Shown one piece after another: positions 12,657-60,599 of a stretch of 64,000 bases of DNA. The position numbers and the translations under genes were made by a program. The number at the start of each line of letters is the position of its first letter. The first letter of the stretch is position 1. Source of the stretch: Cymodocea nodosa (taxonomy: Eukaryota; Streptophyta; Magnoliopsida; Alismatales; Cymodoceaceae); assembly GCA_036874045.1 (NCBI GenBank), contig JAZBRI010000003.1, positions 1,996,501 to 2,060,500 on the forward strand. Reading direction: 5' to 3'. The notes below the pieces were generated by a model, which saw only the letters and a list, made by a program, of their open reading frames with translations, had not been told where the DNA came from and searched no databases.

Positions 12657-15600
12657 ATGACTACTCAAGCTATGGGGTCTCACGGTACCGGTGGGCAGCA
12701 ATCGCAGTTTCCGAACTTGCCCAGGCAAGGTTCCATGTATAGCCTTACCCTGAACGAGGTGCAGAACCAATTAGGCGAACCATTGCATAGCATGAATCTC
12801 GACGAGCTTATCAGGAACGTGCTACCTGCAGAGATGGATCAACAATTAGGACTGGACCTTGAAAACACCTCGGCTCAACTGGCATCAGGCTCAGGTATTC
12901 AGCGGCAAGGAAGTGTAACCCTTACCAGGGAAATGAGCAAGAAGACTGTTGATGAAGTGTGGAAGGATATCCAGAAAGAGCAAAGCAAGTCTAGCAACGA
13001 AATGGCTCCAGCCCATGAGAGACAGTCTACACTCGGGGAGATGACTCTAGAAGATTTCCTGGTCAGGGCTGGCGTGGTAACTGATGGTTTGGATAAGGCA
13101 AGGGCCGATAACATCACCAATGTGGGTTCTTCTTGTAGCACCGATCTTATGGTAAGAACTCATGGCTATCCTCAGGGTGTCCATTGGTTGCAGCAATGTC
13201 ATCAGATGACCACGTTACAGCAGCAACAACAGCAGGTTCCTCAGAGTATGGTTAGGGCTTACATGCAAGGTCATCCCGTTCAACAACAATCATGCGTGGG
13301 ATCAGGTAGCATGTTGGATCCTGGATATCATGACAATCAGTTGGTAGCTTCATCTCCAATGATGGGGACACTTTCCGATACACAGACGCCTGGACGGAAG
13401 AGGGTTGCCCCTGGTGACTTAGCAGAGAAGACAGTGGAAAGGAGGCAAAAGAGGATGATCAAGAATAGGGAGTCTGCTGCCCGTTCACGAGCCAGGAAAC
13501 AAGTGGGCTATCATTTGACTCATTTCTCTGGTTCTTTTTAGAGCTTTTGGCATGTAATCTGACAGGATTGAACTCTCATGTTCAGGCATACACAAATGAG
13601 TTGGAGAACAAGGTTTCACGCTTGGAAGCAGAGAATGAAAGACTGAAGAAGCAAAAGGTACTTACCAAGATGGTTAGATTAGTTTTCTCTTGCTTATTTT
13701 GAAACCTAACAAAGAAAATGAAAAACTAAAGAAGCAGAAGGTACTTTTCAACATATGCTCATTTTGACATCTAAAGCCTAAAGGGCATTCCTCCTTTAAA
13801 AAGTTTTAGCAGGATGAAATAAGGATGTATGCTACTTGCATGATTCAATAACTGTACAAAACAAAAAGAATTAAATGTAGTGAATCAGTGGTGTGTAAGA
13901 TCCACATATATTGCACATACAGCCAATTGACAATACATCCTAAGATTTATCTTCCAAATAATTGATGTATAGTTTATTTTATTTTCCTATTGAATTGGAA
14001 TGTTGGATATTTCGGATTATGAAAAGTGAACAATTCTCATCCCTAATATTTTGTAAGTTGAAATTAAAGATTCCTGAATTTGTCCATGTAATGTTTTCTA
14101 TAGTTACTGGACTTCTTGCTTTATCAAACCATCTTGAATTTAGTTTAATCCTCGATTATCATCATTCCCACAACCTTATGATTACTTTGGTTATAATTTC
14201 CTGATATTGTATAAGAGCATGATTCCTTCTATAAATCATTTTATTTTTACATAAGCAAACTTGGTGATCTATCCCATCTCAATTAAATTAACCGATTAGT
14301 TATTTGCTATATTTTCCCAGCTTCACATAGAATTATGAGGCAAGGTATTTTTTATCATTTATTTTCTTATTCTGTCCCATATGGAATTTTTTGGTGTGGT
14401 GCTTGTATTATTCATCATTTAATTTAATATGAGGAGGAAAAATTTCTGAATCATGTTATATAATTAAATTTTCTTTTATTACACCTTAGTATACTATTAT
14501 CTTTCTTAATTTAAATCTATGGTGCAACTTGAAAGGCATCCTTATTATTAGTGGTTTTTAGTTATTTACATCATATGAATCGTAACTCATCAATTACAAA
14601 TAGGATTCCCATTTGAATGTATCCTATACTTTGATACACTCAAATTTGTGCAGATTGTTGCCTACATATTAACATAATGGAATTCCCATTACATAGTGTG
14701 CACCATGTAGAAGTGCTATTTTTTCTTGAACAACCTGTAGTTGTCACCTTAAACCAAGAGTTCCAAGACTATACTATTTGCATTTCTGTTGTTAGAGGCT
14801 TTATCAGAATGCCTTTTTACTGGATCATTCCTTTCGTTTAATGCCTTTGATTTCAAATTTAATTTTCTTTTAGTGTGTTATTCTTTCATTGACGTCCTTT
14901 AATTAATTCACAATATTATTCATTATTTCTTATTTATGAAGGTGATGAAATGTTTCTTCTTGCACTCTTCTTACTCATTTATTGTATATCTATTTTAAAT
15001 TCCTTGTTCGTTAAGAAACATCCTTCCAGATTTGCATGACCATACACCAAAGAAAGGTGATGTTCGAACTTCTTTGATTGAGACATAGACTGGAAGGAGT
15101 TCGGCTCTATGGAGCCCATTTCCTTCTCAGGTCCTGATTATTGCAAGACACGACAATATCTCTGGAGTTCAACTGGGACCATCCATCTCTTTAGACATAA
15201 TATCTTGAGTGCCTATGATGGTGACTACATCTGCTCGCACGTGATTCTTGGACATAGAATCAAGTCATTGTGAATGGACAAAATCAGGTGCTCTTATTTT
15301 ACAACAATTGGGACAGTTGTTTCCATTATTGACCAGAAAGACACCAAATTCTCCTTTAGGTGCTTCAATTGCATCCAACAAATGTAGTCGAGGCAAGCTA
15401 AAAAAGCTAGGATAGTCTCTTTGCTTTGAGTTCACAATAGGAAGTGGAATTAATACAATGGAATCAAAAGCACCAAGCCTCTCTTGTTTGCAAGAATCAA
15501 AACACATCAAAATGGTACCAGATGTACTTAACAATGGAAGGATTTGATAGAAATATGTAGAACTGTCCCTCCTAAAAAATTATTCTAGAATAAATTGGCA

Positions 15601-16866
15601 ATAATTAGGAGAGGTGTGCTAGTGGGAAGCAGAAGCAAAGTTATTAGATATTGAAGGAAAGCTTAGTCAAAACCACATGTGCAAGTTTCCTTGCATGTGG
15701 CTCGTCCAGGATAACTTCTTTGGATTTGTGTGAATTTTTTTTTCTAGTTCACAGCCACTAGCTTCTTCCCGTCTCAGACAAGGCTAAGTCCTAAGCCAGC
15801 AAGGTGGTTGGACTTCTCGGCTGAGTTTGACGTGGTGTTTTAATACAAACTGGGAAAAACTAATCAGCTGATGGCTGCATTAAGTCAAAAAGTGAAGTTA
15901 GCTGCTTTGAGGAGTTGGCAGCACTTAGTCAACTCCGAGGCACCATCCCAGACCACATCAAGGAGGGAATGGAAAAGGACCCTAACCTGGTTGGATGTCT
16001 AATTGTGTAGGTGGTAACGATAATATCTTGTACCTGAATTGGTGCTAACCCTCAGAAAGCATTGCCAACAAAAAAATGCTCTACTAAGAACATCATAAGG
16101 CCTCATAAACAAGACAGCAAATTCAAGGTAAAACAGTGATGACTTTTTAGTCATCCTGGTCTGCTGGGGAAATAGTATCTCGTTATTCTGCTTTATGATT
16201 GACCGACCTTCCAGTTAGTTTCCTGTTTTGTCTGTTAGTGTTTATTTGAGCATCATTGTGGTTAATGTTAGTGACTTGGTTCACTAATAATGAAATATGA
16301 ACTCCGGACACAATACCAAGTGATTCACTAGCTACAGATCCTATGCCTTTTTTTCTGAAAGGATATTCAACAATATTACTGAGTATCTTCATTGACAACT
16401 AATTTTATGCCTGCCTCTTTAAACCACTGGTTTAAAAGAATGTGAAAATGTGGCCATCCACGTTTTCTAACGGAATTTCCTTTCACCGAGATGATGGCTC
16501 TAGATTTAATTTTGTGGAAACCACAGCAGATGGTAGTAACTCGATTAGGCTTCATTATGTTTTCCATTTGAACTTTTGGGTGTATGATTCTTTATACATC
16601 TGAAACATCTGCAGATAGGAATAACATTGTTTCGTCAAATTCTGGGCGAAGCCATATTATGTTTGTAGTCTTGGACCTTTGATTCTGATGGACGGCAAAG
16701 TTCGTGCACGATCATTCATTCAGCTATAAAAGGCTATTAAAAGTACTTGACATATGCATTGACTTCGTTTTATCTTCATCTGCAGGAATTAGAGAAAATA
16801 TTAGCTTCTGTCCCTCCACCACAACCAAAGTTTCAGCTTCGAAGGACTAGTTCGTCACCAATCTGA
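12657..16866 (+). CDS. AREB3: Group-A bZIP transcription factor, AREB3/ABI5-like
   Basis: This is a nuclear ABA-signalling activator that binds ABRE (ACGTG) promoter elements. Three coding exons, 12657-13502, 13586-13657 and 16786-16866, give 332 residues. The family blocks are in order: C1 near residues 19-36 (RQGSMYSLTLNEVQNQLG), C2 (LTREMSKKTVDEVWKDIQ), C3 (STLGEMTLEDFLVRAGVV), then SDTQTPGRKR. The basic region at about 260-285 (RRQKRMIKNRESAARSRARK) is followed by a leucine zipper. The C4 tail is QLRRTSSSP. C1-C4 carry the SnRK2/CDPK phosphorylation sites known for the family. The tail and spacing fit AREB3/DPBF types better than ABI5 itself. A polyglutamine run lies mid-protein. The first ATG after the leader-intron acceptor is at 12657; an alternative in-frame ATG is at 12672. 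The last intron (3.1 kb) is loaded with insertions. Confidence 0.93.
13712..13746 (+). repeat. Partial tandem duplicate of bZIP exon 2 end plus its splice donor
   Basis: The intron copy reads as ENEKLKKQK followed by the donor gtactt. The true exon end at 13628-13663 reads ENERLKKQK followed by gtactt. The copies are about 83 bases apart and most differences are silent or conservative. Stops lie between the two donors, so use of the second donor would truncate the protein after the zipper start. Confidence 0.8.
15020..15710 (-). pseudogene. nad7: Nuclear copy of mitochondrial DNA: end of nad7 and group II intron domain V
   Basis: On the minus strand, 15372-15180 encodes residues of the C-terminus of NADH dehydrogenase subunit 7 (complex I): EAPKGEFGVFLVNNG, CKIRAPDF, then ADVVTIIGTQDI. 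These match the mitochondrial protein with several changes and one stop. Further upstream on the same strand, at about 15705-15668, is GAGCCACATGCAAG, a GAAA tetraloop and CTTGCACATGTGGTTT. This is the hairpin of a group II intron domain V, as expected for the intron before the last nad7 exon. The gap between them is longer than normal, so part is rearranged. In flowering plants nad7 is mitochondrial, so this is a NUMT. It lies within the bZIP intron, antisense to the gene. Confidence 0.75.
15870..16010 (+). mobile_element. Small Ty3/gypsy retrotransposon fossil
   Basis: A short stretch resembles the junction between the RNase H and integrase parts of plant gypsy polyproteins. A LAALSQ-like segment is followed by IKEGMEKDP, where family members have I-EG-xHDP. 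Only this small piece is recognisable, with no LTRs nearby, and it is broken and old. It adjoins the mitochondrial insertion. Plant mitochondrial genomes sometimes carry such fragments, so it may have arrived with it. Confidence 0.4.
16030..16785. other. Remainder of the large bZIP intron, unassigned
   Basis: Two overlapping minus-strand open frames (16183-16398 and 16376-16567) look protein-like, for example PFRKKGIGSVASESLGIVSG. I could not match them to a family. They may be another organelle-derived or transposon-derived piece. The intron ends with a normal branch and acceptor region before 16786. Confidence 0.35.
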
Positions 16867-23706: not shown

Positions 23707-23979
23707 CTACTTGTTCTGAATTGGGTTTGATCTGCTCTGAGGTGCCCTCCTTAAGCTTGTTTCAGCGCCGGATGCTGGCCCCTCAGCAGTTGCATTCAGA
23801 GTCCCTGCAGTGATGGGCTGTGAGCTGGAACTGTGGTGCACTAACAGCAGTTTTCTTGGTTGCATGCCCTCAGTGCGATATCTCTCCTTGTGGGAGAGAG
23901 GCAAAGAAGAGCCTGAACACATGAACAGGTGGACTAGTAGGAAGGAAAGGAGAACAAGAGGCCTGGGCATGGTATCCAT
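23707..23979 (-). CDS. Small secreted peptide precursor with CLE-like C-terminus
   Basis: A single exon encodes 90 residues. The ATG at 23979 is followed by a strong signal peptide (VLLSFLLVHLFMCSGSS). Then comes a variable Ser/Thr-rich region with one N-glycosylation site (NAT), and the protein ends LRRAPQSRSNPIQNK. The end resembles the CLE dodecapeptide pattern R-x-V/A-P-x-G-P-N-P-x-H-N, keeping R, P and NPI-N. It is one residue longer and has SRS where CLE has GP. The inner motif MQPRKLLL is also typical of peptide precursors. Such peptides are secreted, cut and sensed by leucine-rich-repeat receptor kinases. The precursor architecture is clear; assignment to CLE rather than another peptide family is tentative. 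An upstream in-frame extension to 24102 runs through a microsatellite and is not credible. Confidence 0.7.
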   Translation of the reverse strand: MDTMPRPLVLLSFLLVHLFMCSGSSLPLSHKERYRTEGMQPRKLLLVHHSSSSQPITAGTLNATAEGPASGAETSLRRAPQSRSNPIQNK

Positions 23980-27969: not shown

Positions 27970-29260
27970 TTGTTTAGTATTAACATTATTATCTTGTAAA
28001 TTTTAATATATTTATCTTAATAAATATTCAAGAGTGTATTAGAATTTACATTAGAATCGTATTTATTAAAATTTATTAACATTATCAAGACATTTGTATT
28101 TATTAAGAAAGAGTTGAAAAGTAATAACAAATCATGAAGTAGCACGCAGCGTGTTTTAGATGTGCCATTTAATTAACCAATCTTCCTCAAATTATTCAAA
28201 CTTCCTAGCTACACACATAATGGTTAGTTCATCTCACAGCCATATCTATTTGAATTGGACAGAGTAGATCAAATTTGCATTAAAAAAAGAAGAAGAAATA
28301 TTTAAATACTCGAGTGGGAGGGAAATCAAAAGCTCTCTCTCTCTCTCTCTCTGCAATGCTTAAGTTTGTTTCCCTCTCTCACTCGTCCATCATACTAGAG
28401 CCAGTAGTTTCCACCAACAATTTAATCAAACGAGGTATCATCTTTGTTTCCTACTTAACACTCGCAGGAGGCAAGTTGGTCACCCTTAACATTAGCTTGT
28501 CCTGTTGAGTGTGTGGTACTTTAACATAGGTACAGAGTAAAGGAAATCATCTGTCAATGATTAGTACCTAAATTGCGGCCCTTCCCTCATGAAGCACTTG
28601 TCATGGACATCATGCTTAGCGCTGCATACCTCCTTCCTAGACATTGTTTCTCGACCAAGTTGCACATGACATTTAACGCCATAATGATCAATGTTATTAC
28701 ATTCAATAACTGTTCTCTTTCGTCTTCTCTTACATCCAGAGTCAATGATCAACTTGAAGCAACTTGCCCATCACAACATTTAGTCCTCCCAGCTACTGGT
28801 CTTCGTTCTGCACAGATTCACTTTTTGGTTAGTCCTCCCTTGAGGATAATATTAACGGTGGAAGGGAAGCCAAGCACCTCTTGGATCCACCCTATGGAAA
28901 ATTCAAGTGAGATAGCTGGCCAATTTCATTATACATTATAAAAAAGAACACCTAAGAGTTGCCCCAATGCCATGAGAAGTATGCTGCTAATTGCTTACAA
29001 AAAATTATGATTGAACTGCACAAAAACTACTGCCTTCACATCTCTTTGGTGGCATAGATAGATCAATCACAATGTAACCCTTGATATCTAACATGATTTA
29101 TAAGAGAAAAAACTGATGTAAAAGCACATCATCTAGTGTATAATCTATTAAAATTATGGTCATCAGGTTTTATGTAAGTGAGCAACTCAATGGATGCATC
29201 TAAGACAATAAAAAGAAGAAGCTTAGTACACACCATACTTTACAAACAATTGGACCACAA

Positions 29261-32200
29261 TCAAAAGAACCTTCCTCCACCAATTCTTCGCGCAAGCTGC
29301 AGATCTTTAATCACTGTTTAAAAATGAAAACAGTAAAAACCTCTTTAACTAAGAGTGTATCACAACGTGACAAACAGAAAAAAAGACATCAGCTATATAT
29401 GGGAGATGCCACGTTGAAACATTTTAATTGTTTGTCACAGCTAAAAACAGAATGGATTTTTCCATTCTGTTCTTTACAAATTTCAATTATAAAATCCAGG
29501 AGAATATTTGGGTTCCATGAACGCTAGTTTACATACATGATAGTGAACTTTTGATAATTATGATGGACAAATGTGACGGGCATCTGGTCTGTTCTTTCTA
29601 TGTCAAATGATCATGAATATATTAGTTCTTAACAGAAGGCCAGGTCAATAAATGATCATTAACCTTTTTCAGTCATTGTCTACAAGAGCAATCTTAGCTA
29701 ACCCCAAAATTACAAGGCTAACACTCTTATCATCATGTTTATCGTATGTGGTAAACAAATTCTTATCAAAATGGGAAACACATTTTTTGTCACTTTCTTG
29801 CTTCAAAGCTTTTCATCTTCAACAACTTGATGTTTTATCTCCACAAAATAACTATATTACCAGAACATGAAAAAAATACAAGGGCAAAAAATCAGTTTTC
29901 AATCAAAGAATGGTACAAGTCATGACAACATTAAGGGGAAAAATATTGCATTTTTTGGGATGATTAATTACAGCTTGTTAGAAAGGTTTCCAGAAAAAAT
30001 AATTAAGAACTAACATACATCATAGAAGTTGTGTGTTTCCCTTTGTACAAATCTCTCTTTGATGTGGTTCAGTGTGCAATGAATTATCTTGACAAAGCAA
30101 ATAAATATGTATGCATCACCAGGAAAAGACAAGTAGATTTCAATGTGTAAGAGAAAACATTAGATCCCACTGAAGAAATGTGAACTTACTCAAAGTAACA
30201 CGTTTTGCATGGATGGCACACAAATTGGCATCTCCAAGTAGACGGACAAGATGATCCTCTGCTGCCTAGGAAAGAATACAAGATTTAAGTAAATCATATG
30301 CAGATGTAAATATCTGACTACCAATAGTAGAAACAATGTAAGCAAATGCTTAATAGGAAAAAATTGATTGTGTTTGTTTTTTCTTGGCAGTATATAACTG
30401 CAAAAACAAATCAGATATTAAATTAGTTCTTTAATTAACTATTAGAAGATTTCTAGAAAATGAGGTGGTATGCACAACAAAAATAAACAAGAATAATCAA
30501 AGCTTTCAGGTTATGCAGATTTTCTATAAATAATATGGTGTACCTCCTGAATTGCTAGCAAAGCTTCTGGTGTCCAACGATTAACCTCAGTAGTATAAAA
30601 CTGGGTAATCTCTCTCACCTACAATGCTTAAAGAATCAGAATTAGAAATAAAACTAATGGGATCCATTTTCCAGCACACATCCGTCCAAGGATACATAAG
30701 TTCTATAAAAATTTTACTGAATAACAAATTAACAATGTCAATGGTCAATACATAAATTCCTACAGTAGCTCAGCTACAAGCATCTTTTATGAGCAATCCA
30801 AGTAGCTAACAATTTTCTCATAATGGCAAACTTTAGACTGCACTGATTGCTATCATCTAAGGTGATGTTTGAAAACACTTTCCCACGGTAACTTATTTAA
30901 GCTAAGCATTTATTTGAATAAGTGGATTCAAACATGACTGCATATCTAGTTTAAGGAAAAAATCAGATAACTTGTTCTTAATCAGCTTATTGAATGCTAC
31001 TATAGTAGGCATATCAGTTTAGTTGGTCCGTTTGTACATGTGTCAATCATACATTGGTTGTAATGTACATAAACATCTATAGATAAGTGGAGAAGGGTCT
31101 CGATGAGTCTTGATAAGACCCCAACATTTTTAAAACTCTACCTCATTCGCACAATCCACTAACAAGGTATCAGAGCACCACTACACCTCTGCAATATCGT
31201 GAAGAATGGTAGCAATTTAAGGACTCATGCTGCGACACACCTCTGACAGATGAAGAAAAGGACTTTAACATTTTTCAAAGCTTTCTTGAAAGTTTTTTGA
31301 GCATCCTGTCCGGAAAATCATCAATCTACAACCAGTTATGTCATTTACCTTGGTGACAACCCAATTTCATGGTCTCCCAAGAAACAAAGTGCAATTTCTA
31401 CATCTTCTATTGAAGCTGAGTTTCGTGCAGTGGTGAATACTGTAGCAGAAGTTACAGGGATTCTGAGTTGGTGGTGAATTAGGCATCATCTGACAAATTC
31501 TCAATTATTCTATGACGATATGGGTGTGTTATACCTGACTGCTAACCTACTATTTCGTTCTCACGTGAAACATGTCGAGATTGATCTTTGTCATGTCAGG
31601 GTGAAGGTTTTCAAGAAAGATCTCAGAGTAACCTATATCTCCACTAAGGACCAACTTGCTGATTGCCTTAGAAAAGCTTTGACAAAGCCATCTTTCCTAA
31701 ATCATTGAAACAAACTTCATGTTCATCACCCTCCATGAATTTGAAGGGGAATATTACCGTAGAAACATGAGTATAGGTTGTCATAAATGTACACGAGTCA
31801 GCCATACATTGGCTGCGATAAATAAGCTGGCTTTTTAAAATAAGTTGAAACTCAAATATTATTTCCAAGTGTGTCCTAAAATAAAACCAAAAAAGCAGTC
31901 TGAAAACACTCACAGTTCGAACAAATGGTGCACATGGAATAAGGTAGTGCCATGTCTTTTGGTACTTTCTTATCTCTCTCAGAGCTAGAGTCCCAGGTTT
32001 GAACCTACGCCGCTTCCTCGCAGACCCGTCGGCATTTTCTGCAAACAGAAAGCAACCATTTACATCCATTACCAAGAGAACACACTTCCATCCACAAACA
32101 GAAAAAATACCTGTCTGACCACTTCCACTCCCCCCTTTACTCGCCATCTTCTTTTTGTTCCTCCCCACATTCGATCCCTGCGTTTCACCAGCACTCCACC

Positions 32201-32533
32201 ACCCAAAGAATAAGAGTAAAGCCAAAACAAAATTGCAAAAACAAAGCAAGGTCTTGGAACCAGATCACCTTCTCCTCACGGCCAGTGCCCGATCCCTCCT
32301 CCCCTTCACAACAACCATCAAATGGATCAGAACTTGGAACCAATATCGACAAACACAACATTATGCAGCAGATGCTACAAGAGTGGTTTCGCCACAAAAA
32401 GGAGTGAAACGGATACAAGTAGAGAATGCAATGACAACAGGAGAATGGCACCTTTCTGGTGCGGCGGTGAAGTCTGGCGGAGAGACTTCCGGACGCGCCT
32501 CCGGGCGGCGAGCGGGTGGCGTGTCCTTGCCAT
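29261..32533 (-). CDS. CENH3: Centromere-specific histone H3 (CENH3)
   Basis: CENH3 replaces H3 in centromeric nucleosomes and founds the kinetochore. Seven exons join in phase: 32452-32533, 32269-32303, 32111-32177, 31914-32038, 30544-30618, 30190-30265 and 29261-29313. They give 170 residues. The N-terminus is MARTRHPLAARRR, the CENH3-type start. The tail is basic and Gly/Ser-rich (about 70 residues), as expected fast-evolving. The histone fold has FKPGTLALREIRKYQK (alpha-N), IPCAPFVRTVREITQFY (alpha-1), a lengthened loop 1 (TTEVNRWTPEALLAIQEAAE), LCAIHAKRVTLM and ARRIGGGRFF. The RWTPEAL loop and the absence of canonical H3 residues (QSSAV, RGERA) separate it from ordinary H3. Unusual points are KTWHYLIPC before alpha-1 and the FF end. 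The exon 2 acceptor (GTGAAG) has a weak pyrimidine tract. Intron 4 holds a copia fossil. The gene appears intact. Confidence 0.93.
31000..31850 (+). mobile_element. Internally deleted Ty1/copia retrotransposon fossil in CENH3 intron 4
   Basis: The parts occur in element order on the plus strand. An LTR-like segment (about 31000-31160) is followed by a primer-binding site for initiator tRNA-Met (ggtatcagagc, 31166-31176). A copia RNase H region follows (about 31330-31710), then a purine tract (gaaggggaat, near 31743) and a second, partial LTR-like segment (about 31755-31850). The second LTR-like segment shares the TGTACA...CATACATTGG region with the first. Most of the coding interior is missing and the element is broken. 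Divergence between the LTR-like ends suggests it is not recent. It lies antisense to CENH3. Confidence 0.8.
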
Positions 32534-35363
32534 GGGAGAGGAGAGCGGTGGACTTGGGGTGTGAACCGTGAGAATTTTGCGTTTTGGGGGGAAAATTGGT
32601 CGAGGGTGTGGGCGTGGGCGCCGGGACTGTGGTGTTTTCAGACGTCCGATCGTGATCGGAGGGTGAAGATGTCCCGAGAGCTTCGAACCCGAGGTGTTCG
32701 CCTTCGACCGTTGGGTGGTAGTCGCCGTCCATTCATCTTGTTTTTTCTTTTTTTTCTGTTTTTTTTTTTAAAAATTATGTATATAAAAAATAATCAATAA
32801 AAAAGTAATTTTCTTTAATTTCCGTCGTCTTCTTTTTTTCTGTTGATAAGGTTGGGTGAGAAAAAAAATATATTTTCACGCAATAACAAGTGATTGAAAA
32901 ATATATATATATATATAATTTTTTTTTTTGTCAAACAATTTTGAATTATATTTTTATAGAAATCATTCTTACTTTTATTGTGATATTTAAAATGACATAT
33001 TAAATTTTATTTCGATATATCACCTATATAATTCATAAGAAAAATAGAAGTACATCTATCATACGATTTATAACGTCTACAAACAAAAGTAGATAAAAAC
33101 CGTATATTTCACAAGATCAACGAGTAAGAGTAGAAGAAATCGTGTAATTTACAATATTGTCATTTGCAAACGATAAATGATAGTTCTACACGAAATTAAT
33201 GGTATCCGCACAAGTATCATTTTCAGGATCTTTTACCATGAATATCCACAATAACAAATTTCCCATTTTTATATCATATTAAAGTAAATTCAAGAGCATT
33301 CTTCTAGAACAAATGATTAGCTACAACTAATAAAGAACATAAAAATAACCTCAGGTTAATTGAATGAGAACTAAACTTAAGACTAACACATGAGGAAGCA
33401 TGGAAGGCACAGAAGCAAGTCAAGTCTGCTTCTTCATGGTCATAGACCGCTCCTCTCATTGGAACCCCACCAATCCCTTCATTCTAATTTCATCTTTCAC
33501 AGGCATATTTGCATGCAATATCAAAAGGAACTCTTATTAGCTTCCAAAGCAGAAGTAGGAAAAGATTCCACCCACCAAATCCCCAAACTTACCAGTCAAA
33601 TGGTTCTGACTTTTGGGAGCTTTTGAGTGTAAAGTTAAAAGTTAAAGATTGTATTGGTGGAGTTTGTAGCCCTGGTCTTTCCAGATACTGCTACCATTCA
33701 TATCAGTTCAAAGAAACCACCAAAAATATTCACTTGAATTTTACCTTAAAATTACTTCTTCTCCGAAAGGCATGCGTCTGTGTTGATTTCGGCAATTCAA
33801 CCACATTTAGAATTTGATTGTGTATTGTTTTTATCACATGGGAATCATCATCATTTTTCATAATGGTAATGTTTCTATTTAAATATCGTCTTCATCTTCT
33901 TCTAAAGTAGAGTGAAAATTTTATTATGTTGTCCATTACTACCAGGATGATCACTAAATGGTTCTTTTCTGATGATGGAATGAAGAAGGCCCATGTGTTA
34001 AATCTGTGACCACCAAACCATAAGGATAGCAGAGGGCTTTTTATTGCAAGGCCTTAGCTTAGCAATATGTCGTAAAAAGATTAGGAATCTACTTTTTATC
34101 CATATCCACACTTTTATTTATCATAATAGATCAGGTCAATATCTACTAAAGGCAAATCTTAGTTGCTATCCCATCCACTATAGCAGTCAGTAAATAACGG
34201 ATAAGGTTAGCAGGCCAAGTGGATAAAGTTTTTATTCATTTATTGAATAAAGACCTACCACATTCAATGAGTTTCTTTATCCTAAAATATTTCTAAAAAG
34301 TTATAAATATCTGAATGAATTAAAAACCTGTGATAAATACTGTTTTCAAGAACATGTCAAGCACAAGATAACTACTACATAAAACAATGTTAATATAACA
34401 ACTAATGATAACCAAAAGAATCTCATTCTCACTTTCTCATTAAGAAATAATGAATCACAAACTCAGAAATCACTGTTTGGTTTGCACCGGAGGATGAGAT
34501 GATCACTTGAACGAAGATTTGGACTGGAGACCTGCCCACTAAATGCCAGGGGTCCAAGGGGTGGTAATGAAGCACACAGCTCAACGCCCAACGATCAATT
34601 GATCTGGCAGAGTCCTAGGCAGATTCCAGTGTCTCCTGAGGCATTAATTGATTTGCGTTTCAGTGACGCCTCTTGAGGAATGGGGACAAAGAATCGAGTA
34701 TGCAGGCAGAGAGAAATGTAGATTCTTCTTCCTCTCGTCTCCTCACGGTCGAATTGCCGGTGGGTGGTCGTCCATGATCGACCGGATGCAATCAAGCAAT
34801 GTCACATCAACAGAAAAATGAGAGGAGGCATTTATGTGATCGTAAAGGGGAGAGGGGAATGGGAACTCTTTTCTGTAATATTGGTTAAGGATTTCCTTCA
34901 TCTATCATGTTGTTCATGGTTATGTGACAAAAAGTTAATAATGTAGGCAGGGAGGAAGGGAACACCACCGGATCTCAAGTTACAAGGATGTGGTAGCCAG
35001 ATAGATGGCAGTGAATAAATAGGACCCCAAAGGCATCTCTGAAGTGTGTGCAAACTGAAATGGAAGGGAAGGAGGAAGGCCAAGTTGCTCAATGCTGCTG
35101 CACATGTTCATGGAGCCATGTGGGCAGATGGCCTGCTTACACTCCCATTATATTAGTGTAGGATTTTACTAATTCATGGTTCAGTTTGCTTCTGCCAAAT
35201 GCTGGCTCAAGAATTTCAGATTATTCCAACGATTGTCCATGGTCGTGCACACATTTGCTGTCCTTTTTTGTTGCTGGATCTGGGGAACTGCCATGTTTTT
35301 CCTGTCCAGCTTCTGCAGTAAGGGCCATGTGTGCGTTCACAACACATATGTGGCCAGACGAAA

Positions 35364-37040: not shown

Positions 37041-38129
37041 CTAGAAGCCATTCATCTCTAGAAGGTAGGTTCGCTGCTTCACCAGTGCCTTCACCGCAGC
37101 CCTGAACGGCCCATCGAATGCAGTGGACGCAAAGGTCTCCACTGCTTCCTTTCGGCCGTCGTTGCTGCCGCCGCCACTCACGGTGGTCCCTTCGCCTGAA
37201 GGCTTGATTGCCACCAAAGTGGCTCCTTGCATGCCGGTGCCGTCGGGAAACTCCAAGTGGGGTGCGTACCTCAGCTTCATGTTGGAAGCAGGCACCTGGG
37301 TCCTACTTGAAGATGTTGATGCAGCCAATGGCTTCTCCCTGAATTCCTTCAGCTGCTCTTTCCCCATGACCAGAGTACCCTGACCATCTGCATCTGTTAA
37401 GATCAAGCTGTTCAGAGTGGGATGGTCTTTGATTATAGGACGCAGAAGGTAATGCCTTGTGGAAGCAGCAATCAATGAGCTAATGGTCCACACCACTCGC
37501 AGCTTCAGCCCTCCGTTGGTGTAGAACGATTCTGGTATGCTCCCATTGTCATCAACGACCGCCGGAGATTCCTGCCCCAAGGTATCGGATTTCCGATCTA
37601 ACTGCGTGCCCCCCAAAATAACACAATTCTGAAGTGTACTCCCGAACTCTGCCCTCCATTTCAGAACCACCCCATCTTCCGTGCCAACATCACCGGCCGG
37701 GAGCTCGATCCGAAGGTTACGGATGTGGGTGAATCTCCTAAGCACCTGGGCAGGAGAGTGGTGGGAGAGCTGTGGGAGGAGTGATCTGTGCCCGGTGTTG
37801 GTGTTGCGCAGATGATTGAATGGCTTGAGAATGTTGAACAGAAATACCTTAAAGAAGTGAGAGAAGAAGTTCCTTGGTTTTGGAGAAGAGGCATTTGAGG
37901 CCTCATCTCCATCTCCATCTACCGTGACCACTCTATCGATCTTCACATAAACTTCATGGACAAGTGGGACAAGGGTGCTGAATCGTCTAGAGACAACGGC
38001 ACATCGGCCCAAGGATCGGACGTCGGCCAGCTTGTTCAAAATTAGGAGGACGATTGAGTCGGGTATTCTATCGAATTGGTCAGGAAACAGGGATGGATCA
38101 TCAGCATGAATCCGAGATTTCGACTGCAT
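37041..38129 (-). CDS. F-box protein, AUXIN UP-REGULATED F-BOX (AUF) type
   Basis: This is a 362-residue protein with an uninterrupted coding region. F-box proteins are substrate receptors of SCF ubiquitin ligases. The N-terminal F-box at about residues 17-60 (FDRIPDSIVLLILNKLADV, LGRCAVVSRRF) is followed by the family-specific body: SHHSPAQVLRRF, IRNLRIELPAGDVGTEDGVV and LKWRAEFGSTLQNCVILGG. The C-terminal part is VKALVKQRTYLLEMNGF. These match the plant At1g78100/At5g46170-like group, whose Arabidopsis member AUF1 affects auxin transport and cytokinin response. A leader intron (about 38136-38912; donor CTCAG|GTGAC, acceptor TTTAG) splices six bases before the ATG, leaving a leader exon near 38913-39050. 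The upstream region carries clustered TGACG motifs, fitting auxin or stress responsiveness by inference. Confidence 0.92.
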   Translation of the reverse strand: MQSKSRIHADDPSLFPDQFDRIPDSIVLLILNKLADVRSLGRCAVVSRRFSTLVPLVHEVYVKIDRVVTVDGDGDEASNASSPKPRNFFSHFFKVFLFNILKPFNHLRNTNTGHRSLLPQLSHHSPAQVLRRFTHIRNLRIELPAGDVGTEDGVVLKWRAEFGSTLQNCVILGGTQLDRKSDTLGQESPAVVDDNGSIPESFYTNGGLKLRVVWTISSLIAASTRHYLLRPIIKDHPTLNSLILTDADGQGTLVMGKEQLKEFREKPLAASTSSSRTQVPASNMKLRYAPHLEFPDGTGMQGATLVAIKPSGEGTTVSGGGSNDGRKEAVETFASTAFDGPFRAAVKALVKQRTYLLEMNGF

Positions 38130-39065
38130 CTCTCACTAAACAGAATGAGAAGTGGAAAGTTGAGATTGTGTTGCGTTCCAAGATTCAGAAAAACGGAGGC
38201 CGGGATTCTTAAATTTTTCAACTCTCAAAGCAAAGACTTCTTAGCCTCCTGAAACTAAACTGAATACCTCACAGATTGCAGCCCTGCATGATGAAAAAAT
38301 AAAATGCTCTAAACATTAGTAAGCTGATTGATGAAAAAATAGCATGAACAAAACAATCCATGTGTTCAGAAACGAAGAACCATTTATCCACCATAGTTTG
38401 TGGGGAAAAATTAACATATTTTTCTCATCAGACCTTTTGATGTCTAAGCATTGAACCATAGACATAATGTAACCAAAACGCATAGAACAACCACACAAAT
38501 AGCACTCAAAGAACAGACAATAAAACACAAAATCGAACGGATAAGAATCTAATGGGAGAAGGGGAGAACCAAAGCAAAGTTCTTCTCAGGGCCAGCAAAG
38601 GAAAAAGAAAAAAACCCACCACAGAGATAAGAAGAAAACCTCATCTCAGCCAACCACTTCTCAGAGTAAACAACTTTCTGCCATAAAACGAGACAAGAGA
38701 AGAATAAAAAAGGAAGACACAACACGACAATCTCCACTCTCTCGAAAAACCTCGCCTTTCTCCATGAATCGAGCAGACCGAGAGGAGCCCGGATGGAAAA
38801 ATCGGATTTTCGTCACGAACATGATCCCCTCCCCCCACCCCAACGTGAACAAACAGATCCAAAGTGAAAACCCATGTGAAAGAAGGAAACAGAGAAAGAA
38901 AGCAGCAGTCACCTGAGAGATTGATGGTCTGGTGGATCGAACGGTCGGAGCTAGTGCTACTCCTCTTCCTGGCGCTGCTACTCCTCTTCTTCCTCTTGTA
39001 GTTATGGTTTTCCCCCCCTCCCCACCCTCCATCTATCCCTCTCCCTCTCTCTCCTTCTATAACAA

Positions 39066-54827: not shown

Positions 54828-55725
54828 TCAGAACAACCTGATATTGAGATCACAATCCTGGGACACGACCTCGGAATCCGGCGCTAGCCGGTCGACCTTG
54901 ACGGCGCAGTGAGCCTTGAAGAAGACGGTCCACGACTTCATAGTCCCTACCTTGAGCTTCCCCGGAGCTACTATGTCGATGACCAGCGGCACCTCCCCGT
55001 GCTTTTCCTCGGCCACCAGCTGCCTACGTACATTGTCCGACAGCCGGATCTCTGGACCCCGCAGCACCGCCCAGACCCACGTCACGTTCCGCTTCTGGTC
55101 GAATGCCGGCCATCCACCTTCGCCCAGGACGACGTCCCAGTAGCGTATCTTGAGGGAGCTTCCGGACGTGTAGTGGATCCCGATCTTCTTGTTTGGGTTC
55201 TCCACTCTGACGGTGACGTCGAACTCCGGCGTGAAGGACTTGCTCTTGACGGCTGCAGCAAAGCCAATCGATACCATTACTTGAGACAGCTGATGTCGGC
55301 GGAGCAATATATACATAAATATGTTCGGCCATGGGAATGACTATATCCTTACCGGTCGAGGAAAGGTTGAACCCTTCGACGGTGAGTTCAGGGACAGAGT
55401 ATCTCGGCATCTTAGGGTTGTAGGCGAAGTACAGGAAGACTGCTAAAACGCCTACGGCGAGGGCCAAGACAACGAAGACGTTGAACATCCACCAGAGGCA
55501 GCAGCAGCAGCAGGAGCGGGAGCGGCGCTTACGGAGGCCCCGGCGGGTGTAGAGCTTGTACTGGTGGGCGTTCTCGGGCGGCGGGACGCGGTAGATCTGT
55601 TCCTTGGGCACGTGGACGACGTAGCCGGGGGGCCTGCTTTTGGGTCTGGCTTCGCCGGAGTTGTCGGGGGTTGCGTTGGTGGAGGAGCCGTCGGATGGCG
55701 ATAGTTGGACCCTGACGTCGGACAT
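54828..55725 (-). CDS. NDR1/HIN1-like (NHL) LEA-2 membrane protein
   Basis: Two exons, 55353-55725 and 54828-55252 (donor ACCG|GTAAGG, acceptor CTGCAG), give 265 residues. A Pro-rich cytoplasmic N-terminus (PPGYVVHVPKEQIYRVPPPE) leads to a basic stretch, a five-Cys cluster before the membrane (possible acylation) and one transmembrane helix (MFNVFVVLALAVGVLAVFLY). The extracellular LEA-2 domain follows: YSVPELTVEGFNLS, then FDVTVRVENPNKKIGIHYTS and IRYWDVVLGEG. NHL proteins are plasma-membrane proteins linked to pathogen response and membrane-wall contact. The C-terminus has no GPI signal. The leader carries a (GAA)n tract at about 55860-55910. The gene looks intact. Confidence 0.92.
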
Positions 55726-55969
55726 CGTCGCCGGCGGTGGGAGATATATGGGTGTGGAGATATGGGTTTAGAGGAAGCGACGGAATTGTGTTATGGGCGC
55801 ATGGTGGAAGGAGAACTCCATGTGGGTTGAAGGAGACACAGAGGAGGACTCTTCTTCGATCACCTTCTTCTCTTCTTCTTCTTCTTCTTCTGCTTCTTCT
55901 TCTTCTTCCATGGATGGTATGGAAGACGTGCACTCTCGTAGGGGTGTGTCCACTCTTTTTTCTTTTTCT

Positions 55970-57104: not shown

Positions 57105-59961
57105 TCAATCGGAGTCACTTGAACTAGAACTAGAACTAGAAGTGGAATTTGAATCAGAAACTTCAGATTTCTTCTTTACAGGGCTGGAACCACTAGCTTC
57201 ATTGTTAAATCCATCTATATGTGCTCCTCCCACCAGCCCAGTCTTTTCCTGTAAAAGAAAGAAAAGATTCACGTGTATGAACTTCACTTTCAGCTCACTG
57301 GTGTACCACTTGAGATAAAAAATAAAAATTTTGGTTTACATTGGTGGTATGTAAAAGGGATGAAATTGCAGTAGGATTGCCTTCGGGAGCTACAGTGGCT
57401 TCATGCAGACTGTTTTCCTTCGTCACAAGATGGCCACCCTCAAAGACATCTGAAGTAACTTTTTCTTCCTCGTGTCTAAACTCTTCCAAGATTTCTTCAG
57501 GAATCGGTGGTAGAATACTGATTTGGGATTCTACGATGCCAAAATTAGATGGGGGAGAAGGAGGAACAGGGTCTTCCACTGAGGTTTGTCCTTTAAATGA
57601 TGTGTGAGAAGACAAATTATCACTTGTCACCAATCTTCTTAGAGACTTTGCATTGGCAATTTTATTTATGCCATCAAATTGAGATAATCCCCCTCCCTCA
57701 TTGGAACTTTCTTCCATCTGCATTAAAGGAAAATTTGACGTCGATGTGTTGCTTTTGGTTTCTGATACTATTGAAGAGGGTGCAATGGAATTATTGTTGT
57801 GTCCCTCATCTGTCACTGTAAAATCAGCTTCGATAACATCATGCTCCCTTATTTCTTTAACCTCTCTCGTTCCTGACTCATGCATATCAATAAAAGATAA
57901 GTTTGAAGATGCCACCCAAGGCCCATTACTGTCAGATGATAACTCTTCTCCTGATAACAAGTTCTGGTCACTCAGCCTCAAAGGTGATCCTGGCTCTGAG
58001 ATCTCTACTTGCATATCAGATGCCAAGGAAGAATTTGAGTCTGAACCCTGCCTATCCAAGTAATGCAAAGAATCCTGAATTGAAGTGATATTTGAGAGTG
58101 ATTTTGGCATTGATGATGGACTACAGTCATATAGGGGTTCCACAATCTGAAGTTCATTGACAATCTCAATGTCCTTAGAATCAGATGAGCTGCTTTGATC
58201 ATCTTCGGTGCATGAAGAAGTGCTAGTTTCATCAGATCCATCTTCAGTCAATTCTTTTTCTTTAGAATTTGACGTATGTGGAACTGTAATAACCCCATGC
58301 TTGGTTTCTGCTTTGCTTTGGGAATTATAAATAATACCATCCTTTGCATTAACACTGATGTGGCCATCATTGATGCTATTTTCCTTGTGTGCTTCTTGCT
58401 CAGTTTCAGTGGAACCATCATTATCGTTGTCACTATTCTCATCATCATCTTCTGATGATTGGCCTTCATGCTCAATGGATTGTATTCGATTATTATCAGC
58501 AGAAATCAACCCACTTACACGATGGATTTCTTGTTCTAGAATGTCATTGTGAATTGCATGGTTTGAGTGATTTGAAATAGAAGAAACAGATTCAGATTCT
58601 AAGGTAGAACTAACTTTAGAATCACTTATACCACTCAATTGGTGTTGAAGTCCACCATAATTTGTTTCATCTGCATCATTCCTCTCTGCCACAAAGTAAG
58701 GACGAAACCTGGTACGTCGCTTCTCCGGCTTGTAATCTCCAGGGGACTCTCCAATTGCAAAGCTTTCAAATCTTTTGAAAGGCATATCTTTTGGTTGAAA
58801 TGCTGAAAAATCCTGCTGATGACTTGGGTCCCCGCTCATGACTTCATCATTGTTTGGCATCACATGTTCACAGGGAAGTTCAAATGGATTCTTCCTTGGT
58901 AACAAAACAGAAGGGGCTGAACCAGGAACTAAATCATTCTCCTCTGAACCACAAGGGAGATCAAAAGGATTTTTCCTTGGTGGAATCATCACAAGAAGAC
59001 GGGAGAGCTCCTCAACAACATTGGTAGGCTCATTGCTGTCCAGGTCTATCAAATTCTTCTCTGTTTCAGATCTTTGATAGTTCCTGGCTCTTCTCTTTGC
59101 AATTAGATGCTCCAATCTTTGGTTCCTCTCCAGTTCAATTTTCCCGACATCCCTGAGATTTTTTTCATCATCCGCAGTCCACTTCATCACTACTTCGGCC
59201 TGTCTTTCTTTCTCTTCTTGGGCATCTTCTTCCTCTTCATTTTCTAGATTTTCTGTTTCTTCCTCGTCACTATCATTGTCATCTGAATCATGCCCATGAG
59301 ATGATTCTATAGATGAATCATATGAGTCAGATACATTAGCTGGTTGAGTGGATTTGGTATCTAAAAGTGGGTGAAGCTCATCAAGCATTGGAGTGACCTC
59401 CTCAATGGATGCATCTAGTCTGTCAATGCCTTCTGCATTGGAATCCAAAGTGTCATCACCTTTTGTCATAGATGGCCTCTTTTCTCGACTATTTTTAATA
59501 AGATGATGGGAAACCTTAGATCCTTTCAATGCACTTTGAACTAGGTTATCTTCAAAAAAGTTCTCACTGTGGACTTCTTTCCCATATCGTTGTGACGAAG
59601 AAGGCATTGCATCAAGTACATTAAAATCCCTGTTCCTTCCGTCATCATCTTCTTTAAACAAAAACATAGCCCTCTTTCCCCTCAATTCTCTACCATCCAG
59701 AGAAGAACAATCAATTTTCTTCTCCTCTTCTTCTACTTCAGAGCTATGTGTTCGACTGGAAATCAGAATGATTTCGAGAAAAACAAAAGTGCAGATGACA
59801 ACTGGAGAGAAAGAAACCACTACGCCAAAGAATGAAGGGAATTTCCTGTACACAAGAAACGAGAAGCATGCCATGCCAAATGTAAAAGGGTGACTGCACG
59901 CCAAATAAAATGGCATGATCAAACATTTCTTTACGAAAACAGGTATCACACTAATCCCCAT
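57105..59961 (-). CDS. Large acidic membrane-anchored protein of unknown function with two NPF motifs
   Basis: A long exon (57340-59961) joins a short last exon (57105-57248) in phase, giving 921 residues. Residues about 14-70 contain two hydrophobic segments (LACSHPFTFGMACFSFLVY; VVVSFSPVVICTFVFLEIIL). The rest is acidic, Ser-rich and probably disordered, ending in a poly-Ser tail. A conserved core has a charged coiled stretch (LEHLIAKRRARNYQ). Then come IPPRKNPFDLPC (NPF near residue 330), LPRKNPFELPC (NPF near 357) and RTRFRPYFVAE. This pattern belongs to an uncharacterised plant family (Arabidopsis At5g17910/At2g29620-like, often mislabelled after animal muscle proteins). NPF motifs can bind EH-domain endocytic proteins; that role here is inference. 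A leader exon ends at 60379 and its intron ends at 60017. Confidence 0.85.
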
Positions 59962-60599
59962 CCCTATCTTCCTCCCACCTTCACCTCAGCATTTCTTCCT
60001 CAATTCCCCAAACGAACTGCCAACAAGAAGGAAATCAGAAGGCACGCCTCAGTGCATCAGCCAGGCACATATCAATTGAGCTGCATACAAGCTAGAATAA
60101 TCGTAGAATCAAACCTTCCAGAACAACAGCAGCATAATCATTGGGAAAAACAGAAATTAACAAATCAGAGATCGTAAGGAACAAGGAAACTGAAGGCACC
60201 CAAGAGAAAGCATGATGATACCAAATATGTTATGATGAGGAATCAATGGTAAAATCCAGGAAAACATGAACACGGTGATGATAATCAACAGCAACAAGGG
60301 AATAGACAAGAAGAGATCATCAAACAGACAAAACCCAATTGTGCAAATGGAATAAGAAGGCAGAAAACGCAACCTTACCTTCCGGGGGCACTGATCGGAT
60401 GACGACTGGATCGGTGGGGGAGATTTGGGTATTGTTTTGTGCTGGAATTTTTCTTCTGGCCGAAGGAATAGCCGCGGAAACTGCCCAACCGGTGGAGGGC
60501 GGTGGTGGTCGGCTCCGAATGATCGCCCTTCTCCACCCTTTGACCCTTGAATCTTAACCCTTTCTTTTAATGAAAATCGATCCTTGATGCTAATCAATT

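Follow-up and report, generated by a model that had tools for sequence, protein, structure and literature searches.

Does the stretch of DNA analysed here encode a complete centromeric histone H3, and if so, is that histone unusual? The window (the whole stretch, 64,000 nt long) carries on its minus strand a split histone-fold gene that a preliminary description had read as a complete seven-exon CENH3 of 170 residues with an unusual tail and C-terminus. Our analyses uphold the gene and take away most of its strangeness: we consider it very probable that this is an apparently intact, ordinary plant CENH3 gene, most likely from a monocot. Published comparisons marked "in excerpt" refer to sources that were available in part.

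Gene model of the CENH3 locus

The coding sequence runs on the minus strand from 32533 to 29261. Its seven exons, together with intron 4, are as follows; helix positions were assigned to exons by comparison with H3.

32452..32533, minus strand: CENH3 exon 1, 82 nt, residues 1-28, start of the N-terminal tail (MARTRH)
32269..32303, minus strand: CENH3 exon 2, 35 nt, tail
32111..32177, minus strand: CENH3 exon 3, 67 nt, tail, containing an internal ATG at 32147
31914..32038, minus strand: CENH3 exon 4, 125 nt, end of the tail, alpha-N and start of alpha-1
30619..31913, minus strand: CENH3 intron 4, 1295 nt
30544..30618, minus strand: CENH3 exon 5, 75 nt, remainder of alpha-1, loop 1 and start of alpha-2
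30190..30265, minus strand: CENH3 exon 6, 76 nt, remainder of alpha-2 and loop 2
29261..29313, minus strand: CENH3 exon 7, 53 nt, alpha-3, C-terminus ARRIGGGRFF and stop

Joined, the seven exons give 513 nt including the stop, or 170 residues from MARTRH to ARRIGGGRFF. All six introns (148, 91, 72, 1295, 278, and 876 nt in order) have GT-AG boundaries, the exon phases are consistent, and the reading frame contains no stop, frameshift, or non-GT-AG junction. Sequence, splice sites, and phase are direct observations. The three tail exons that had been singled out beforehand were recovered exactly (32533-32452; 32303-32269, with its 35 bases; and 32177-32111), and the complete gene is upheld both by the in-phase GT-AG joins and by the top-scoring tail model. 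Among 25 models that start at the MARTRH ATG and keep the frame under loose splice cut-offs, the described structure ranks first (15.6 vs 11.6 for the runner-up), and it is also the best of the 12 that have three tail introns; this ranking is rough, since the splice matrices were simple and the summed score rewards models with more introns. The weakest spots of the model are the exon-1 donor, which is middling (rank 8 of 43 by a simple matrix), and the exon-2 acceptor, an AAG of a weak, unfavoured type that nevertheless takes second place when the 28 AG sites of the tail region are scored by the same simple approach.

Several other features lie in and around the gene. Intron 4 holds, at about 31330-31700 on the plus strand and thus antisense to the gene, a Copia-like RNase H remnant, identified by what we take to be a Copia RNase H motif; the 42 residues tried had no Pfam match. 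The remnant may account for the length of the intron. Two ATGs on the minus strand, at 32732 and 32736, precede the CENH3 start. The first begins an open frame of 123 codons that shares bases with exon 1 but is read in a different frame; both might function as upstream frames if they are transcribed. The E2F-like site TTTSSCGC is absent from 32534-33600, upstream of the start, and the looser WTTSSCSS has one match there, at 32594. Rfam gave no match at gathering scores, a PDB search with the partly intronic open frame 30193-30417 returned nothing, and the only repeats in 28000-34000 were an AT run and inverted pairs of a kind expected by chance.

Identity and predicted function of the histone

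The spliced protein matches the Pfam Histone family (E 3.5e-35), and its best PDB chain is histone H3.3 (E 6.6e-33). The best 60 of 176 PDB matches are all H3 chains or chimaeras that combine H3 with parts of CENP-A, with no plain CENP-A among those listed; the CENH3 label therefore depends on loop 1, the tail, the end, and the identity to rice CENH3. Loop 1 is one residue longer than in H3 (EVNRW vs DL-RF) in all five printed PDB alignments, so that its length, like the fold family, is established directly. Human CENP-A has two extra residues in this loop (review PMC7475651, in excerpt). The N-terminal tail, which begins MARTRHP, is unlike that of H3, the C-terminal end is hydrophobic, and the protein has 170 residues vs 110-157 in the listed PDB chains, counting tags and truncations. 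Of the landmarks published for four grasses, the start MAxTKHPAVxKS is matched at five of its ten specified residues and the end ARRIGGRRHW at seven of ten (PMC5489561, in excerpt).

Across the fold, the protein is identical to rice CENH3 at 67 of 95 positions, to Arabidopsis CENH3 at 58 of 95, and to plant H3 at 58 of 93, in comparisons with background versions of the three reference sequences. The rice version agrees at five positions (131, 139, 152, 155, and 158) named or implied in PMC9842635 (in excerpt). On these sequences, the greater closeness to rice CENH3 than to H3 supports the CENH3 label, and the Arabidopsis identity fails to separate the protein from H3.

Could the gene then encode a variant (replacement) H3 rather than a centromeric one? 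Such a gene would fit both the listed PDB matches, which are H3 or H3 chimaeras, and the Arabidopsis CENH3 comparison, in which identity does not rise above that of H3; however, the H3 tail is missing, loop 1 is longer, the end is hydrophobic, the length lies above that of the listed PDB chains (tags and truncations included), and rice CENH3, in the version compared, is nearer than H3. Altogether, a variant H3 is extremely improbable. Within the 64-kb window, tblastn found no second histone-fold match; beyond the gene's own exons, there were four matches at E 0.12 or worse.

As a CENH3, the protein would substitute for H3 in centromeric nucleosomes. Its histone fold, from residue 76 onward, would pair with H4, and loop 1 plus alpha-2 (residues about 111-148) would direct it to centromeres. 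In CENP-A, chiefly as described for the human and yeast proteins, the fold pairs with H4, and loop 1 with alpha-2 forms the targeting domain (PMC7475651, in excerpt). Expression of the gene and loading of its product onto centromeres by KNL2/NASP are predicted accordingly from its identity as a CENH3.

Comparison with grass and banana CENH3 genes

We then asked how far the gene structure departs from that of known monocot genes. Grass alphaCENH3 has seven exons, 159-172 residues, an exon 1 of 76-127 bp, and introns that are longer toward the 3' end (PMC8603533, in excerpt). Rice CENH3 (LOC_Os05g41080) likewise has seven exons (PMC9842635, in excerpt), and in rye, exon 2 measures 25 bp and exon 3 measures 39 bp (PMC5732303, in excerpt). 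As far as these excerpts allow, our gene resembles grass alphaCENH3 (rice, rye alphaScCENH3) in having seven exons with the second and third short, in protein length, in its longer 3' introns, and in a bZIP gene downstream; it differs from rye in its longer exon 3 (67 nt vs 39) and from grass alphaCENH3 in tail sequence.

Banana offers a second comparison, based on PMC5489561 (in excerpt). There, 10 of 17 unique CENH3 transcripts have a 7/6 exon/intron structure, nine of those 10 have a CDS of 504 nt, and a protein of 167 aa is given for Calcutta 4 and M. balbisiana. Compared by gene structure and lengths, our gene is like MusaCENH3-1A/1B, sharing the 7/6 structure and having an intron 2 of 91 nt, vs 87 bp in banana.

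All elements of the monocot seven-exon architecture, including short second and third exons and longer 3' introns, are thus present here. From the seven exons, and from rice CENH3 being closer than Arabidopsis CENH3 among the two plants compared, we infer that the sequence most likely comes from a monocot. Seven exons, a similar length, and tiny tail exons have already been published for grass and banana CENH3, in the parts of those papers available, and the structure itself can no longer be called unusual. Because only a few core residues and the last residues differ from the compared relatives, the gene is essentially ordinary: a CENH3 of the monocot seven-exon type with a few substitutions, whose reading as unusual is mostly unsupported.

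Potential for alternative splicing and misannotation

The tail, spread across exons 1-4, would be the fast-evolving portion of the protein, and alternative splicing would be expected there. Dropping exon 2 alone or exon 3 alone disrupts the frame, while dropping both together preserves it. Rye CENH3 has an in-frame isoform that lacks both exons 2 and 3 (PMC5732303, in excerpt). A five-exon group of banana transcripts also lacks these two exons and has a longer exon 1; whether it represents a separate gene or a splice variant is left uncertain by its authors (PMC5489561, in excerpt). Elsewhere in our gene, intron 3 (72 nt) has no in-frame stop, with a predicted retention product longer by 24 residues, and exon 5 (75 nt) can be skipped in frame, with a predicted loss of part of the fold.

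The preliminary description had warned that an automated annotator could miss the small exons and start at an internal ATG. That ATG is indeed present at 32147, 30 bases inside exon 3 as counted on the sequence, and it is plausible that annotators would overlook the small tail exons. The open frame of intron 3 would make the risk greater; together, the small exons and this intron mark places where annotation may fail.

The KTWHYLIPC segment and the RFF end

Two features of the protein had been described as different from known CENH3 proteins, namely the segment KTWHYLIPC before alpha-1 and the terminal FF. The rice counterpart of the segment is presumably KTTELLIPF, and the rice end is presumably GGRRPW, vs GGGRFF here. 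The published end of four grasses is GGRRHW (PMC5489561, in excerpt). The differences are real relative to the rice CENH3 version compared and the grass end consensus as available, but they are small.

A literature search on the protein's own motifs gave no CENH3 paper by title and abstract, and no paper on palm CENH3 was among those listed, judged by title and the start of the abstract. The available part of a Chionographis/Chamaelirium centromere paper contains no CENH3 letters (PMC12722358), and for the plant CENH3 C-terminus and CENP-C, the search led to a betaKNL2 paper whose available part holds no usable statement on the CENH3 end.

RFF retains the aromatic, hydrophobic character of RPW and RHW, which makes a conserved function with altered letters the likeliest reading, as judged by the residues themselves. 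The hydrophobic RFF end (RHW or RPW in grasses) would provide the predicted contact with CENP-C. In CENP-A, mainly as known from the human and yeast proteins, CENP-C is contacted by the C-terminal tail, which is hydrophobic (review PMC7475651, in excerpt), and the C-terminal tail of maize CENH3 could bind H4 (review PMC11503545, in excerpt).

The same two spots may be viewed differently. If the main CENH3 gene lay elsewhere, and this one were either silent or a diverging second paralogue comparable to grass betaCENH3, then the FF end and KTWHYLIPC would be marks of relaxed selection. That two spots are altered within otherwise conserved regions favours this view, and several plants have duplicated CENH3 genes (PMC8603533, in excerpt). 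However, the intact frame and junctions argue against it, as does exon number: grass betaCENH3 has four exons, whereas our gene has seven, as alphaCENH3 does (PMC8603533, in excerpt). The bZIP gene downstream also matches the grass alphaCENH3 locus, in so far as the excerpt describes it. A paralogue or silent copy is very unlikely, and we continue to treat the gene as an ordinary, intact CENH3.

The neighbouring bZIP gene and the age of the locus

The bZIP gene was assembled by joining its exons by eye:

12657..16866, plus strand: bZIP gene, three coding exons (12657-13502, 13586-13657, 16786-16866), 332 aa

Its product matches Pfam bZIP_1 (E 2.7e-13) and presumably belongs to the AREB3/DPBF3-like subgroup of group A. 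Its end and the CENH3 stop are 12.4 kb apart, and the gene lies downstream of CENH3, tail to tail. In rice, according to excerpts of the respective papers, LOC_Os05g41070 is the bZIP gene HBF1 (PMC10638126), LOC_Os05g41080 is CENH3 (PMC9842635), and 41090 is DMI3 (PMC5104908). A study of grasses reports bZIP downstream of alphaCENH3 in all species studied, yet neither marker gene in maize, and dates the origin of the CDPK2-CENH3-bZIP locus to the BOP grass ancestor, about 50 million years ago (PMC8603533, in excerpt). Relative to that excerpt, our locus is like the grass one in having bZIP downstream of CENH3, the likeness to rice Os05g41070 being one of position and family. On the other side of CENH3, no calcium-dependent kinase gene was recognised in the window, but one may be present outside it or be interrupted in such a way as to escape the patterns. 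No kinase match to Pfam was found in the 20 frames scanned out of the 144 open frames of at least 75 codons (eight of the 20 upstream of CENH3), nor were simple kinase or EF-hand patterns found in the six frames of the window.

The window contains further candidate genes, all on the minus strand. A small open frame at 23707-23979 begins like a signal peptide, with MDTMPRPLVLLSFLL, and carries near its C-terminus the sequence RAPQSRSNPIQN, which we take to resemble a degenerate CLE peptide; the frame has no Pfam match. An F-box-like gene occupies one open frame at 37044-38132 (Pfam F-box-like, 2.5e-06). At 54831-55767, a LEA_2 (NDR1/HIN1-like) gene lies in two frames, the second part of which matches Pfam LEA_2 (1.6e-09), and a GGTAAG close to the frame change is compatible with an intron donor. 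Finally, a frame of about 890 residues at 57298-59985 has a hydrophobic start followed by acidic, serine-rich sequence, with no Pfam match at E 0.01.

The G+C content of the window is 36%, which is low for a grass. Based on this value and on CENH3 ends unlike the grass consensus, the plant may be a non-grass monocot, and a CENH3-bZIP pair in a non-grass plant would make the pairing older than the grasses. We tentatively propose, as something a little short of an even call, that the pairing predates the grasses and was kept in this non-grass monocot, while RFF replaced RPW/RHW at the end of CENH3, perhaps with corresponding changes in CENP-C. The lack of a recognised kinase gene on the other side, in the frames and patterns scanned, counts against an older pairing. 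Our literature search, judged by title and the start of the abstract, found no paper on CENH3-bZIP pairing outside grasses.

The neighbouring bZIP gene could lead to a correction of the date published for the CENH3 locus. For the species itself, antibodies, centromere mapping, and haploid-induction work need a correct CENH3 sequence of full length, including the true tail.
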